Part shown: piece by piece, positions 33,691 to 53,175 of the stretch | How the letters are laid out: every line of letters begins with the position of its first letter | How positions within the stretch are numbered: position 1 is the first letter of the stretch | Origin: Bacillota bacterium | Lineage (GTDB): Bacteria > Bacillota_I > Bacilli_A > RF39 > UBA660 | Length of the DNA stretch: 55,057 bases | Assembly (NCBI GenBank): GCA_015059445.1 | Contig: SVAK01000003.1 | Location: 1-55,057 of the forward strand | Reading direction: 5' to 3' | Position numbers and translations under genes: made by a program | Notes under the pieces: model-generated | Seen by the model: only the letters and a program-made list of their open reading frames with translations | Databases searched by the model: none | Told to the model about the DNA's origin: nothing

Positions 33691-34185
33691 ATGAGAAATA
33701 ATAAAGGTTTTACATTAATTGAATTATTAGCAGTAATTGTTGTTTTAGCAATAGTAATGGTACTTGCGGCAACAACAGTATTACCATATATGGCTAATGC
33801 TAGAAAACAAGCTTTTGCTACTGAAGCAGAAACTGTGAAGAAGGCAGCTTCTCAAGCAGTTAGTCTAATAGGCATTGGTTCAATAGCAGAAAAAACAGGA
33901 GAAACTGAAAATTATAAAAAAGTTACTGTAAAAGAAGGCGAAGTAACAAAAACTGGTTATTGTTTTACTATTGCTCAATTAAAAAGCTTAGGATTGTTTG
34001 AAAAAGATGATACAAGTTATGAAGGTACAGTAACTGCGCTTAAAGAAGGAAATTCTTATAAATATACTGTTCATATGAAAAATAGCAATTATTATATTTT
34101 ACAAGCTAGTTCTGGCAATATTACTACTGCAGATGTTAAAGACGGTACTCCTGGTCAGGATGCTGGATTTAAAAGTTCATGTTAG
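33691..34185 (+). CDS. Tandem type IV pilin 2
   Basis: A 164-residue prepilin with leader MRNNKG and the same FTLIELLAVIVVLAIVMVLA helix as its neighbours. It matches pilin 1 almost exactly to about residue 65 (through IGIGS), then diverges in the surface domain, which includes a lysine/glutamate-rich loop (EKTGETENYKKVTVKEGEV) absent from pilin 1. Conserved anchors return in GYCFTIAQLKSLGLFEKDD and the C-terminal cysteine (SSC at the end). AGGAGA precedes the ATG. The split between a constant stalk and a variable head suggests paralogous subunits with different surfaces. Confidence 0.88.
   Translation: MRNNKGFTLIELLAVIVVLAIVMVLAATTVLPYMANARKQAFATEAETVKKAASQAVSLIGIGSIAEKTGETENYKKVTVKEGEVTKTGYCFTIAQLKSLGLFEKDDTSYEGTVTALKEGNSYKYTVHMKNSNYYILQASSGNITTADVKDGTPGQDAGFKSSC
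33703..33882 (+). repeat. Pilin 5' repeat, copy 2 (180 bp)
   Basis: Second copy of the segment at 33208-33387; three synonymous differences in 180 bp. Confidence 0.9.
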
Positions 34186-34193
34186 GAGATAAT

Positions 34194-34667
34194 ATGAAAA
34201 ATAATAAAGGTTTTACATTAATTGAATTATTAGCAGTAATCGTTGTTTTAGCAATAGTAATGGTACTTGCAGCAACAACAGTATTACCATATATGAGTAG
34301 CGCAAGAGAAAATGCCTTTAAAGTTGAGGCTACAAATGTTGTAAAAGCAGCAGAAAGCGCTAAAGACTTATATACTTTAGGACAAGTAACAATTCCTACT
34401 AATAGTTGTGTTTCAGGAACTACAATGTGTCTTACAGTAGATGAATTAATCACTTTAGGAATTTACGATGGCGATCCTAATACCTTTGATGGAAAAGTAG
34501 TAATTACAAATTATAATGGAAATAATCCGACATATACTTTAAATTTAAAGAAAAATACTGAGTTTACAATAATTGATGGAACTGGTAAAGATTATTCTAA
34601 ATATACCGGTTCATTAACAGGTACATGGCCAGCTGATAACTCTGCATCTACTTGTAGTTGCAGTTAA
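34194..34667 (+). CDS. Tandem type IV pilin 3
   Basis: A 157-residue prepilin with leader MKNNKG and a helix identical to pilin 1 (90 bp identical at DNA level), then a different spine (SSARENAFKVEATNVVKAAES) and a distinct head with four cysteines (NSCVSG, TMCLTV, and the final CSCS). It is the most diverged of the three outside the leader and helix. AGGAGA precedes the ATG at 34194; an earlier in-frame codon lies inside pilin 2. A strong terminator ends the operon. Confidence 0.88.
   Translation: MKNNKGFTLIELLAVIVVLAIVMVLAATTVLPYMSSARENAFKVEATNVVKAAESAKDLYTLGQVTIPTNSCVSGTTMCLTVDELITLGIYDGDPNTFDGKVVITNYNGNNPTYTLNLKKNTEFTIIDGTGKDYSKYTGSLTGTWPADNSASTCSCS
34206..34295 (+). repeat. Pilin 5' repeat, copy 3 (90 bp)
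   Basis: Identical base for base to 33208-33297 of pilin 1. Homology stops at the end of the membrane helix. Confidence 0.9.
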
Positions 34668-38736: not shown

Positions 38737-38765
38737 TTGACAAAAAAATGATGTTAGCGTATAAT
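38737..38765 (+). promoter_or_regulatory. Perfect consensus sigma-A promoter of an RNA gene
   Basis: TTGACA (38737-38742), exactly 17 bases, TATAAT (38760-38765). No start codon with a ribosome site follows; instead a structured RNA region and a terminator do. Confidence 0.88.
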
Positions 38766-38771
38766 TAAGTT

Positions 38772-39068
38772 ACTTAGTAATGATAATATAATTAGTAGTC
38801 ATATCTAGTAGTTATTATCAAAAAATAGTAATGTTGATATGTGTGAAAGTTATATTTTAAAAAGTAAAATAAGTTATGTAATAATAATCTTATCTGCGCT
38901 AAGTAAAGACAATTGTTTATTGAGAAAGAAAACTCGAAAGATAAGCGATTCACACCAAATACTGATAATATTTGGTTAGTATTTAAAATTATGGAGAGTA
39001 ATTTTAAATGATGTGATGAGTTATTTAAACTAGGAATAACTATTTTATCAGAATAGTTATTTTTTTTA
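38772..39068 (+). ncRNA. Structured non-coding RNA of unknown class (about 300 nt)
   Basis: The region runs from the consensus promoter to a strong terminator with no ORF. It contains a series of perfect helices: TGATAATA/TATTATCA (38781-38788 with 38813-38820); TATTTTA/TAAAATA (38853-38859 with 38865-38871); GTGTGAA/TTCACAC (38841-38847 with 38949-38955) enclosing AATCTTATC (38886-38894) with GATAA..GATT (38940-38950); ACCAAATA/TATTTGGT (38954-38961 with 38969-38976); and an 11-bp stem ATTTAAAATTA/TAATTTTAAAT (38981-38991 with 38999-39009). I see none of the signatures of RNase P RNA, tmRNA, SRP RNA or common riboswitches. 6S RNA or another regulatory RNA cannot be excluded. The next gene has its own promoter after the terminator, so this is probably an independent RNA gene. 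Confidence 0.6.
39035..39068 (+). terminator. Terminator of the RNA gene, with an alternative upstream pairing
   Basis: AATAACTATT (39035-39044) pairs with AATAGTTATT (39052-39061), followed by eight T. The left arm can instead pair with AGTTATT at 39019-39025, as in attenuators. Confidence 0.85.
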
Positions 39069-39087: not shown

Positions 39088-39116
39088 TTGACCTAAAGTA
39101 TTCTATGTAGTATTAT
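39088..39116 (+). promoter_or_regulatory. Promoter of the 39141 gene
   Basis: TTGACC (39088-39093), a 17-base spacer and TATTAT (39111-39116), 25 bases before the start. Confidence 0.7.
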
Positions 39117-39140
39117 TTATTTAAATAGAGAGTGAATAAT

Positions 39141-39497
39141 ATGAGTAATAACAGAGAAATTTTAAAATATTGTCCAAATTATTATAATATTGTTAATTTT
39201 GATTTTCAGGAAAATGATTTAATTAGTGAAAAATTAGTTAATATATATAAAAGTTATGTTTTTTCGATTAGTATTCAGAGTGATGAAGAAATAGAAAAAG
39301 TTCAAGAATTAGATAGGGCTTTAAGCAATTATATTGCAGACTATTTGTTTAGAAGTACATTACAAAAAGAAATTGTTACAGTAAGAGTTAAAAGGGATAA
39401 CAATATTATTCGTAATTTAGTAGATATAATTATAAAAATATTTTCTAATTATGAGGAATATACAACTAGAAAAATATATATTAGTAAATGGATTTAA
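39141..39497 (+). CDS. Hypothetical protein
   Basis: A 118-residue soluble, mixed acidic and basic protein, probably mostly helical (ESLVNIYKSYVFSI-like and DEEIEKVQELDRALSNYIADYL segments). I do not recognise the family and see no catalytic motif or membrane segment. The ATG at 39141 lies 6 bases after GAGAGTG. It has its own promoter and terminator, directly after the structured RNA at 38772-39068; read-through of that RNA's terminator would also transcribe it. Confidence 0.6.
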   Translation: MSNNREILKYCPNYYNIVNFDFQENDLISEKLVNIYKSYVFSISIQSDEEIEKVQELDRALSNYIADYLFRSTLQKEIVTVRVKRDNNIIRNLVDIIIKIFSNYEEYTTRKIYISKWI

Positions 39498-39504
39498 TAA
39501 AAGT

Positions 39505-39541
39505 AAAACCAGTGTTAATTTTTAACGCTGGTTTTATTTTT
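39505..39541. terminator. Bidirectional terminator between the 39141 gene and gerAB
   Basis: AAAACCAGTGTTAA and TTAACGCTGGTTTT form a long stem (one G-T wobble), with A- and T-rich flanks on both strands. The gerAB stop codon lies within it. Confidence 0.85.
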
Positions 39542-40540
39542 ATATTTTAAATATATTAATAAACTTAGGAAAATTATAAAGAATATAAATAATGATATAG
39601 GATAGATATATACTATATTAATAATATAGACATAATTGCCTCCAATTAGTAAAGAAGATACTATTAAAATAATAAATATTAATAAGTAAAAATAAATTAA
39701 ATTATATTTTTTTGGCAAAGCATTTTTTAAATTATTTGTTAAGGTTGCTAACATAATAAATAAATCAAAATACCATATGAAAGCTGATATATTTTCAATG
39801 TTTTCAATAAAATTAAGAATTTTTATTTGTCTTAAAACCGTATATTCTGGGAAACTATATATTTTAAGTAATGGCTCTCCCATTGCAATAACTGTAAAGA
39901 AAATAATTGTAAATATTGTTAATGATGATAATAAATAATCTTTTATTGTATTTTTAAAATCATTGGAATAGTTTATCGTGATGATTTGAGGAATACTTGT
40001 TAATGATGCATAAATTAATGCGCACTCAATAATATTATTTGTTCCATTAGTAAACACTGGAATTAAATTATTAAAATCTAAGTATCCAGTTAAGGATATA
40101 GCAAAAAATAAGATAATAATTAAACTGAAAATACATAACAGTTTGCTCAGATTTTCTATATTACTTTTACCTTTAAAAGTAATATAAATGGCTAATATTA
40201 AGAAAGGAATATTGACTAGTATTTTAGGAGTAGTGGTTAGATAAAATGAATTTACAAACAAAGGTAATAACATTAAGGTAATTATCATTAAGTATAAGTA
40301 AAATAAGATTAAAATGATAATATATATTTTTCCTAAAAAGGTATTTTTTAAATTATCTTCTAAAGAATTATTATTTAATTGCTGTTTTATTTTATTATAT
40401 ATATAAAGTATTATTAAACCGAGTAGGGTACCAAGTAGAATTGATATCCATGCATCTTTTCCAGCGTTTTGAAATATCAAGAAAAATCCTATTCCAAACA
40501 TTGATGACCTGGCAATAAAATAAGTTAATTTATTTGTCAT
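39515..40540 (-). CDS. gerAB: Spore germination permease GerAB-like
   Basis: A 341-residue integral membrane protein with about ten helices, of the amino acid-permease-like GerAB/GerKB family. It opens TNKLTYFIARSSMFGIGFFLIFQNAG and has a conserved inner region around YSFPEYTVLRQIKILNFIENIENISAFIWY. In endospores it binds germinants in the inner membrane as part of the GerA complex. It is the last gene of the gerAA-gerAC-gerAB operon and overlaps gerAC by 11 bases. It is slightly shorter than the usual 360 residues. Confidence 0.85.
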   Translation of the reverse strand: MTNKLTYFIARSSMFGIGFFLIFQNAGKDAWISILLGTLLGLIILYIYNKIKQQLNNNSLEDNLKNTFLGKIYIIILILFYLYLMIITLMLLPLFVNSFYLTTTPKILVNIPFLILAIYITFKGKSNIENLSKLLCIFSLIIILFFAISLTGYLDFNNLIPVFTNGTNNIIECALIYASLTSIPQIITINYSNDFKNTIKDYLLSSLTIFTIIFFTVIAMGEPLLKIYSFPEYTVLRQIKILNFIENIENISAFIWYFDLFIMLATLTNNLKNALPKKYNLIYFYLLIFIILIVSSLLIGGNYVYIINIVYIYPISLFIFFIIFLSLLIYLKYKNKTSVKN

Positions 40541-41606
40541 TTTTCACCTCGAATATAAATCCTTTTGTATTAACTTTTAAGTTAACTTTGACTTCAATAT
40601 CAGCATGTTTCCAGAGTTCTTTATTTTCTTTCCGAGTTTTTTTGTAATAAATTTCTTGAAAGCCTAAAATATCACTTTCATTAGCTTGAAGTAACTCAAC
40701 AAAGTTTTTAATATCTTTTTCAATTAATATTCCAAAATCTTTATTTAATTTTTGATAAGCATCATTTTTTGTTAAATCAAAATTAGCATTATTTTCGATT
40801 ACTTTTCCTTCAAGATTGGTGTTGATAATAATTTTATTACTATTGACATCAATTGAAGTATCACTGCTAGTAATACTAATTGTGACATTTTTGTTATCAT
40901 ACTTTTTATCAAATTCCATTGCTGTAATATTTTTAGTTAACATGTTGAATAGAGCAGAATCTTGTTTACTTAAAGTTGTTTGGTAATTATATTTTTTTAA
41001 TATATATGAATTATCAATAGCTATTTGTTTATCTTTAATACTAACAGTATTTAAAATAACGTCATAATTATCACTAATTAATTTGGCTACTATTTGTTTA
41101 AAAGTTTCGCCAATTACTAAATTATTATTATATTTTTCGTTATCTATTAAATTAACTATAACTTCACTAACAACTGGATGATTTTCACTATTATTTTTAA
41201 GTACTTCTTCTGGAGATATTCCATTTGCAACAACCACTTTAAATTCGCTTCTGATATTTGTATCTCTTAATATATAGTCTGTTATTTCATTAAAATGACC
41301 ATTAATTATTTGTTCACTAATTACAACAACCTTTAAATGCGCAAAATAAGCTTTTTTGCTAACCATATAATTAGTATTAATAAATGCTTCACTTATTGAT
41401 TTGCCAGAACCAGAAACCGTATAACTTAAAAGTGCTGTGTTTTCTTCTGTTTTGGTATCACTTAATATTTCATAAGTTAAATAAAAGTTGTCATCTTTGT
41501 AATCAATCCCAACTCCAGTTATAATTGCTAAATCGTCAAGTTCAATATTGTCATAACATCCAGTAAGTAAAAAAATAAAACTAAGTAATATTAATATTTT
41601 TTTCAT
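40530..41606 (-). CDS. gerAC: Spore germination lipoprotein GerAC-like
   Basis: A 358-residue Ger(x)C family lipoprotein. The signal peptide ends in the lipobox FLLTGC with Cys17 as the lipidated residue, followed by YDNIELDDLAIITGVGIDY, the family's typical opening. Later landmarks are ISEAFINTNYMVSKKAYFAHLKVVVISE and NIRSEFKVVVANG, and the C-terminal domain ends near VKVNLKVNTKGFIFEV. It is the lipid-anchored subunit of the germinant receptor on the outside of the spore inner membrane. Its ATG overlaps the gerAA stop as ATGA. Confidence 0.9.
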   Translation of the reverse strand: MKKILILLSFIFLLTGCYDNIELDDLAIITGVGIDYKDDNFYLTYEILSDTKTEENTALLSYTVSGSGKSISEAFINTNYMVSKKAYFAHLKVVVISEQIINGHFNEITDYILRDTNIRSEFKVVVANGISPEEVLKNNSENHPVVSEVIVNLIDNEKYNNNLVIGETFKQIVAKLISDNYDVILNTVSIKDKQIAIDNSYILKKYNYQTTLSKQDSALFNMLTKNITAMEFDKKYDNKNVTISITSSDTSIDVNSNKIIINTNLEGKVIENNANFDLTKNDAYQKLNKDFGILIEKDIKNFVELLQANESDILGFQEIYYKKTRKENKELWKHADIEVKVNLKVNTKGFIFEVKNDK

Positions 41607-43015
41607 TGGAATCTTCCCCTTGTTAGATTTTTTTTAGTAATTAAGTTGCTTCTTTCAGTGTTATTTTTGTCTCGTTTTTTTAAGAAAGTCTTAAAGAAAT
41701 AATCTTTATTAAATGGGGCAATTGGAGCAAAATACGGAGAATCTAAAGATTTTAATGATATAACATTTATTAAGAATAACATTAGACATAAGAAGATACC
41801 ATATAAGCCAAAAATTGCTGCAAAGAATAAAAATATGTAACGATAATATCTTAGGGCATTTCCTATTTCAACAGAAGTAAAAATTAAGCTAGAAATAAAA
41901 GTAAAAGATACAATAATTATCATAATGGGTGATACTATACCAGCATTAACAGCGGCCTCTCCAATAATTAAAGCTCCCAGAATAGAAACCGCTGATCCAA
42001 AATTAGACGGAAATCTTAAATCACTTTCTCTTAAAATATCACAAATAATTAAAAGAATTAAGAGTTCTACAATACTTGGAAAAGGTACACCCGCTCGCTG
42101 GGTACTAAAATTAATTAGTAAACTTGATGGTATAGTTTCTTGATTGTAATTAATGGTTGCTAGAAATATTGCTGGTGCAGTCATGGAAATAAAGAAAGCA
42201 AAAGCTCTTAATATTTTTAAGAAAGCTGCATTAATACTTTTAATATAATTATCGTTAGTAGGATTAATAAAATCGATTAAGAAAGATGGAAGAATAATAG
42301 CAAAAGGCGAAGTATCTACTAATATTATTATTTTCCCTTCTAGTAAAGAAGAACTGGCTAAATCCGGTCGTTCTGTTCTTCTAATTGTAGGAAAAACTGA
42401 TTTATTCTCTCCTTCAATATAATTTATAATTGTTCCTATATCAATGACTCCATCTACATCAATACCTTTAAGTTTTTCTTTAATTTTTTTAATATTTTTT
42501 TCTTCTGCTACATCTTCTAGATAATTGATGCTTATTTTTGTTTGAGATTTTCTTCCTAAAAATAATTCTTCAGTTTTTAAAGTTTTTGTTTTTAATCTTC
42601 TTTTAATAAGCCCTAAATTTGTTTGAATGTTTTCATTAAAAGCATCTTCAGCTCCAACTATTGAAGGCTCTCTAGTAGAAGTACCAATACTTCTGTTAAT
42701 TTCCCCTTTAACTTCTATGGCGATAATATTTTCATTGCTAATAATGATTGCAAATCCATTAGTTAAGTAAAATTCAATTTGATCATGTTTGGTAATATTG
42801 ATAGTATTAGGGCCCGGTATATTACTATTTAAGTTATTAGTATTATTATAATTAGTTAAATTTTTTAAAATAAAATCGTTAATTTTAATACTATCGCAAA
42901 TAGTTTCAATATATATGACGTATATTTTTTTTAACAAGTTAACTCGCACTTCTTTGATTTTTAAATCTGGAGTTTTTTTAAATTCATTTTTTATTCTTTC
43001 TACAATTTTATTCAT
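41603..43015 (-). CDS. gerAA: Spore germination protein GerAA-like
   Basis: A 470-residue GerA-family subunit. A hydrophilic N-terminal domain (residues 1-250) contains the conserved INRSIGTSTREPSIVGAEDAF-type junction, where GTSTREPS and the GPN..F helix are typical, followed by LGRKSQTKISINYLEDVA and FPTIRRTERPD; five or more membrane helices then fill residues 250-420. The C-terminus is basic. The family forms the main ligand-sensing and channel subunit of germinant receptors. The ATG at 43015 is preferred over the GTG at 43024. The gene order A-C-B differs from the A-B-C order of Bacillus gerA. TGA is used as stop. Confidence 0.88.
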   Translation of the reverse strand: MNKIVERIKNEFKKTPDLKIKEVRVNLLKKIYVIYIETICDSIKINDFILKNLTNYNNTNNLNSNIPGPNTINITKHDQIEFYLTNGFAIIISNENIIAIEVKGEINRSIGTSTREPSIVGAEDAFNENIQTNLGLIKRRLKTKTLKTEELFLGRKSQTKISINYLEDVAEEKNIKKIKEKLKGIDVDGVIDIGTIINYIEGENKSVFPTIRRTERPDLASSSLLEGKIIILVDTSPFAIILPSFLIDFINPTNDNYIKSINAAFLKILRAFAFFISMTAPAIFLATINYNQETIPSSLLINFSTQRAGVPFPSIVELLILLIICDILRESDLRFPSNFGSAVSILGALIIGEAAVNAGIVSPIMIIIVSFTFISSLIFTSVEIGNALRYYRYIFLFFAAIFGLYGIFLCLMLFLINVISLKSLDSPYFAPIAPFNKDYFFKTFLKKRDKNNTERSNLITKKNLTRGRFQ

Positions 43016-43090
43016 AATTATCACTAATCATATTATTGGCAACTTTTACCAAAACATACCTTAAAACATATAATATTTATAGGTGAATGT

Positions 43091-52945: not shown

Positions 52946-53175
52946 TGTAATTCAAGACATTGAACAAGACACGTAAATTAAAATAATTTAAAGAGAGTTA
53001 GTAGAATTGGTGCGATGCTAATAAATGACGTTTAATTTATATCACTTGGGAGTTGATTATTTGAAATGATAGTAAAATGATCCGTTGATGGCGTTAACAT
53101 ACTAAGGTGAAATAATAGTTCATAAAATAAGGTGGTACCACGGTAAGTCGTCCTTATGTTTATGAACTTTTTTTA
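52946..53175 (+). ncRNA. T-box leader, isoleucine type (specifier AUC)
   Basis: The conserved AAGGTGGTACCACGG is at 53129-53143. Stem I has AGAGAG near 52992, and ATC at 53041-53043 lies before ACTTGGGAG at the position of the specifier, matching isoleucine. The terminator pairs AGTTCATAAAATAAGG (53117-53132) with CCTTATGTTTATGAACT (53152-53168), followed by a T run. It controls ileS. Confidence 0.92.

Follow-up and report, generated by a model that had tools for sequence, protein, structure and literature searches.

PGK RNA is listed in Rfam (RF03040) as a 92-nt motif with three helices and is assigned the type Cis-reg, a functional label that lies outside the sequence-structure model of the family. 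The family was not named anywhere in the literature that we searched. The raiA/ModT RNA (RF03072) is a stand-alone RNA of Gram-positive bacteria that is transcribed from a SigA promoter and contains two pseudoknots (one with 7 bp); initially taken for a cis-acting element, it proved to be trans-acting (PMC11706538, PMC11751092). OLE, ROOL, and GOLLD are stand-alone structured RNAs as well, and a cryo-EM study of all three concluded for OLE and GOLLD, from palindromes in intermolecular loops that turn into other palindromes, that the molecules kiss symmetrically (PMC12286853). We analyzed a window of 55,057 nucleotides (the whole of the stretch of DNA under study, contig SVAK01000003.1) from a Bacillota bacterium with a genome of 1.02 Mb, and we find that in these uncultured gut Bacilli the 92-nt PGK motif forms the core of a longer RNA gene, which stands on its own and follows the genes for L33 and efp. 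The locus is organized as follows.

38737 to 38765, + strand: sigma-A type promoter, with TTGACA at 38737 to 38742, a 17-nt spacer and TATAAT at 38760 to 38765, matching the consensus at 12 of 12 positions
38771 to 39067, + strand: RNA gene of ~297 nt, the start inferred from the -10 box and the end from the T-run
38882 to 38975, + strand: match to RF03040, model positions 1 to 92, end to end
39033 to 39067, + strand: intrinsic terminator, a hairpin (39033 to 39063) followed by T8
39088 to 39116: promoter of the downstream gene, TTGACC-17-TATTAT, past the RNA terminator

The first-pass annotation had proposed an unassigned, structured RNA of about 300 nt with a perfect promoter, no open reading frame, a strong terminator, and a separate promoter for the downstream gene. 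The word "unassigned" did not hold, given that cmscan, a check which that annotation had itself suggested, matched RF03040 at 83.9 bits against a gathering threshold of 50.8 (E 7e-12), the sole RNA family found at the locus; novelty is reduced to that extent, as the annotation had foreseen for a hit to a known family. The remaining description was borne out. The predicted folding energy of the RNA is -60.6 kcal/mol versus -45.8 +/- 4.0 kcal/mol for shuffled sequences (z -3.7), and the gene is conserved in the genus alignment A2. A near-consensus promoter stands at the equivalent position in nearly all relatives, and terminators are also found behind their copies. The terminator hairpin of the window RNA, which is A+T-rich and for this reason was not listed by a G+C-based terminator scan, is 100% paired and kept in 26 of 26 relatives in the genus alignment, and family-wide 9 of its 10 stem pairs carry compensatory changes. 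A hidden coding role was rejected, since both small open reading frames are broken in relatives: the 46-aa frame is intact in 1 and the 32-aa frame in 3 of the 26 genus sequences.

All three helices of the RF03040 model, P2, P4, and P6, are present in the window RNA. The two descriptions differ in that the window RNA has its own promoter and terminator and adds a P1 pseudoknot, P5, P7, a terminator kiss, and a palindrome. Neither the Cis-reg label nor the association with pgk implied by the family name fits the RNA in the window well, and PGK RNA has apparently been misfiled as a gene-control element; the first-pass reading of a free-standing structured RNA gene with its own promoter and terminator seems closer to the evidence than the Rfam label. 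The core is already in Rfam, whose entry does not appear to cover the extent, the gene structure, the two pseudoknots, or the possible dimer contact, parts of which may have been described with the original motif.

Other identities were considered and rejected. 6S RNA (RF00013) shares with the window RNA its size class and a stand-alone, housekeeping-like gene, but its covariance model had no match at the locus; a separate 6S-like RNA elsewhere in the genome (G000:C8:30175-30348, + strand) reached 39.8 bits, short of the gathering score in Rfam, with similar scores in genus relatives, and is probably a divergent 6S. The models for tmRNA and RNase P, which the first-pass annotation had also seen no sign of, did not match at the locus, and both RNAs were located elsewhere in the genome. 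The window RNA resembles raiA/ModT in being a stand-alone RNA with a SigA-type promoter and two pseudoknots, whereas the helix arrangement described for raiA/ModT is unlike that found here, and membership in this family was rejected: the RF03072 model had no match in the window at E<=1, nor in the loci of relatives up to E 10. The same model had no match in 21 genus genomes, a result that does not make absence from the genus or class firm, given that control genomes were also unmatched. OLE, ROOL, and GOLLD, which are larger RNAs, had no Rfam match at the locus. Elsewhere in the window, a T-box leader (RF00230, 101.3 bits) is present at 52951 to 53158 on the + strand, and two similar type IV pilin-like proteins with N-termini GFTLIELLAVIVVLAIVMVLAATTVLPYM are encoded in tandem at 33691 to 34667 (+).

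The secondary structure was tested on 26 aligned genus sequences and on anchored segments family-wide; RNAalifold on a mixed alignment, A1, had recovered only P6 from a poor alignment, and the genus alignment was used for later work. The elements of the structure, all on the + strand, are the following.

38770 to 38777, + strand: P1, 5' strand, at the RNA 5' end, pairing with 38899 to 38906
38811 to 38832, + strand: hairpin of a variable 5' domain (38811 to 38818 with 38825 to 38832), missing in two relatives
38889 to 38894, + strand: P2, 5' strand, CUUAUC, pairing with 38940 to 38945 and crossing P1
38899 to 38906, + strand: P1, 3' strand, CUAAGUAA, partner of the RNA 5' end
38909 to 38916, + strand: perfect palindrome ACAAUUGU between P1 and P4, a candidate homodimer contact
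38922 to 38935, + strand: P4 hairpin, GAG-AAAGAAAA-CUC, with a strongly conserved loop
38940 to 38945, + strand: P2, 3' strand, GAUAAG, partner of 38889 to 38894
38950 to 39016, + strand: P5, TCAC (38950 to 38953) with GTGA (39013 to 39016), enclosing P6 and P7
38955 to 38975, + strand: P6 hairpin, with loop CUGAUAA at 38962 to 38968
38980 to 39010, + strand: P7 hairpin, with apical loop GGAGA at 38993 to 38997
39027 to 39036, + strand: conserved box before the terminator, AAACU(A/C)GGAA in the sequence of relatives
39045 to 39051, + strand: UUAUCAG in the terminator loop, the exact complement of the P6 loop (38962 to 38968), forming a 7-bp kiss

Covariation, which the first-pass annotation had put forward as a check, gave strong support to nine predicted helices: in the 26 genus sequences they were 99.0% paired with 17 double-changed pairs, a result reached by 0 of 500 shuffles, and sliding the helix partners destroyed the pairing signal. 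The same annotation's nested helix between GTGTGAA (38841) and TTCACAC (38949) was not supported, with 66.7% of cells paired in 26 relatives, no better than shuffled sequences (214 of 500); its TCAC instead pairs in P5, which is 100% paired in the 26 genus sequences with compensatory changes in 2 pairs. P6 has compensatory changes in 6 of 7 pairs family-wide, and P1 in 3 pairs within the genus. Across the family, the duplex energy of P1 was -11.1 kcal/mol with its own partners versus -7.2 +/- 0.4 kcal/mol with permuted ones (0 of 10000), where the 5' segments were placed from the promoter and not by complementarity, and the permutation leaves relatedness in. The corresponding values for P2 were -7.68 versus -5.88 +/- 0.26 kcal/mol (0 of 10000). 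Given that P1 and P2 cross, they make the core an H-type pseudoknot.

A second pseudoknot, in which the P6 loop kisses the terminator loop and both ends of the RNA are tied to the core, is also supported by the comparison of relatives. This kiss is 99.6% paired, with double changes in three pairs and two lineages, where variation is confined to about those two lineages and the terminator partner was located by complement search. In L024 and L027, the pairing is CUGACA/UGUCAG, and the hairpin that carries the partner is followed by a U-tract. The pairing in L030 and L037, CUAGUAA/UUACUAG, is a weaker case, as the partner was found by complementarity and has no U-tract. Both the P1 x P2 pseudoknot and the 7-bp kiss are absent from the Rfam model.

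The neighboring genes bear on whether such an RNA acts on its own or serves the gene that follows. We considered a cis-acting leader, either a riboswitch or an attenuator, in which the knotted core acts as a sensor and the kiss between P6 and the terminator controls read-through into the next gene. The Rfam type Cis-reg and the tie between the terminator loop and the core are in keeping with this, as are the next genes, which are co-directional in 126 of the 140 cases among those listed and often start 120 to 200 nt past the core. Such a bias is what a leader would need, but a strong strand bias in small genomes could yield the same. The identity of the next genes argues against a leader: at 109 nonredundant loci they fall into 41 unrelated clusters, pgk being the next gene at only 4. 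Several lineages have a convergently oriented gene in this position (spoIVA in L009/L015; L108/L113/L134; L078/L152; L115/L156; L022). Moreover, the promoter past the terminator in the window would serve the next gene independently, conserved antiterminator pairing was not seen, and the kiss uses the loop of the terminator while its stem stays intact. We consider a cis-acting leader unlikely. From the unrelated next-gene clusters, the convergent neighbors, and the recurring promoters, we infer that the PGK-core RNA is a stand-alone gene and not the leader of one gene, and that it would act in trans, for which raiA/ModT is the closest functional precedent.

In the window, the next gene (39132 to 39497, +) encodes a 121-aa protein (EILKYCPNYYNIVNFDF...) that had no Pfam or NCBIfam match; proteins of this type are a frequent downstream neighbor of the RNA, with 19 loci in one cluster. 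Beyond it, at 39515 to 43024 on the - strand, lies a spore germination operon (Spore_permease, GerAC, GerA). Some relatives also have sporulation genes next to the RNA, such as spoIVA and one for a sporulation sigma factor.

A free-standing gene could also encode a small RNA of the antisense type, with exposed loops such as the GGAGA loop of P7 pairing with mRNAs. This loop is invariant within the genus, and the helix beneath it has 3 compensatory pairs. However, inspection of other genera did not reveal the GGAGA loop, and an elaborate fold has been under more selection than an unstructured seed, which makes this possibility quite improbable.

The palindrome offers a different kind of contact. 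Among type I relatives (50 sequences), the longest palindrome in this region averages 8.5 nt versus 4.2 nt in shuffles, of which the maximum among 2000 was 5.16. At least seven different self-complementary centers occur (AATT, TATA, ATAT, ACGT, GTAC, CGCG, and GATC), so that the center shifts between lineages while self-complementarity is retained; AATT accounts for 28 of the 44 scored centers, and the signal is partly one of shared ancestry. A hairpin requires only its stem and has no need of a self-complementary loop. The window RNA has a self-complementary loop with a covarying palindrome, which is the type of evidence used in the cryo-EM study (PMC12286853), whereas its multimerization is, in comparison with OLE and GOLLD, a prediction. 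Homodimerization through this loop is plausible, if somewhat short of probable. Palindromes with intact centers are typical of protein-binding DNA sites, but an operator for a dimeric regulator, with the RNA monomeric, is unlikely given that the palindrome, flanked by two structural helices, lies ~140 nt into the transcribed region and that its sequence differs greatly between lineages.

Collectively, our findings suggest that the locus probably holds a complete, free-standing noncoding RNA gene with the PGK motif as its core and two pseudoknots, the product of which acts in trans, perhaps as a dimer. In this model, the 5' end of the RNA would fold back onto the core through P1, across P2, and the P6 loop would kiss the terminator loop, so that both ends are anchored to the core. 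The hairpin of the terminator would double as a structural element, perhaps shielding the 3' end. The palindromic loop could pair with its counterpart in a second RNA molecule, and the resulting homodimer may present invariant single-stranded parts, such as the AAAGAAAA loop and the AAACU[A/C]GG box, to a partner, either protein or RNA.

The RNA is present in 32 of 38 genomes of the genus, including 16 of 16 high-quality ones, with one copy per genome except for one genome with a weak second match. Within the family, RF03040 matched in 35 of 243 genomes, and a wider model built in this analysis matched in 44 of 236. Every match in a scan of 395 genomes of the class fell within this one family, where the scan filters lose weak matches and do not establish absence outside it. 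Named genomes, scanned by pattern, gave matches almost exclusively in gut or rumen MAGs labeled Bacilli, Tenericutes, Mollicutes, or Erysipelotrichaceae; the matches L082 and L109, in Actinobacteria and Enterovibrio, were dropped as likely chance. Viral contigs had no match to the core pattern, and a phage origin was rejected on this basis. Tandem copies ~310 nt apart occur at L035 and L036 (genomes G092 and G216), and other genomes carry two distant copies. Seven loci (L029, L039, L094, L097, L134, L166, and L168) represent divergent relatives that are extended by a long stretch at the 3' end. Other types exist among the distant relatives; one of these, type II, sits after rplL (assigned from protein sequence), and at L180 a ribosomal L10 leader lies upstream. 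Three elements are retained in type II, the hairpin GAGAAAGAAAACUC, the loop ACUGAUAAU, and the box AAACUCGG, but its terminator is an ordinary one. Given that the ACUGAUAAU loop is kept there without a UUAUCAG terminator, it must have another role in type II.

In summary, a family filed as the leader of one glycolytic gene looks like a stand-alone RNA that is found in every high-quality genome of the genus. We tentatively propose that the PGK motif is the core of an unrecognized class of trans-acting noncoding RNA in one family of Bacilli, with the terminator docked into the core and a homodimer formed via the palindrome. With its boundaries and class corrected, it becomes a possible member of the small group of elaborate RNAs in bacteria that includes OLE, ROOL, GOLLD, and raiA. 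It may also serve as a compact candidate for RNA-only dimerization, for which the pairs to mutate are now defined.
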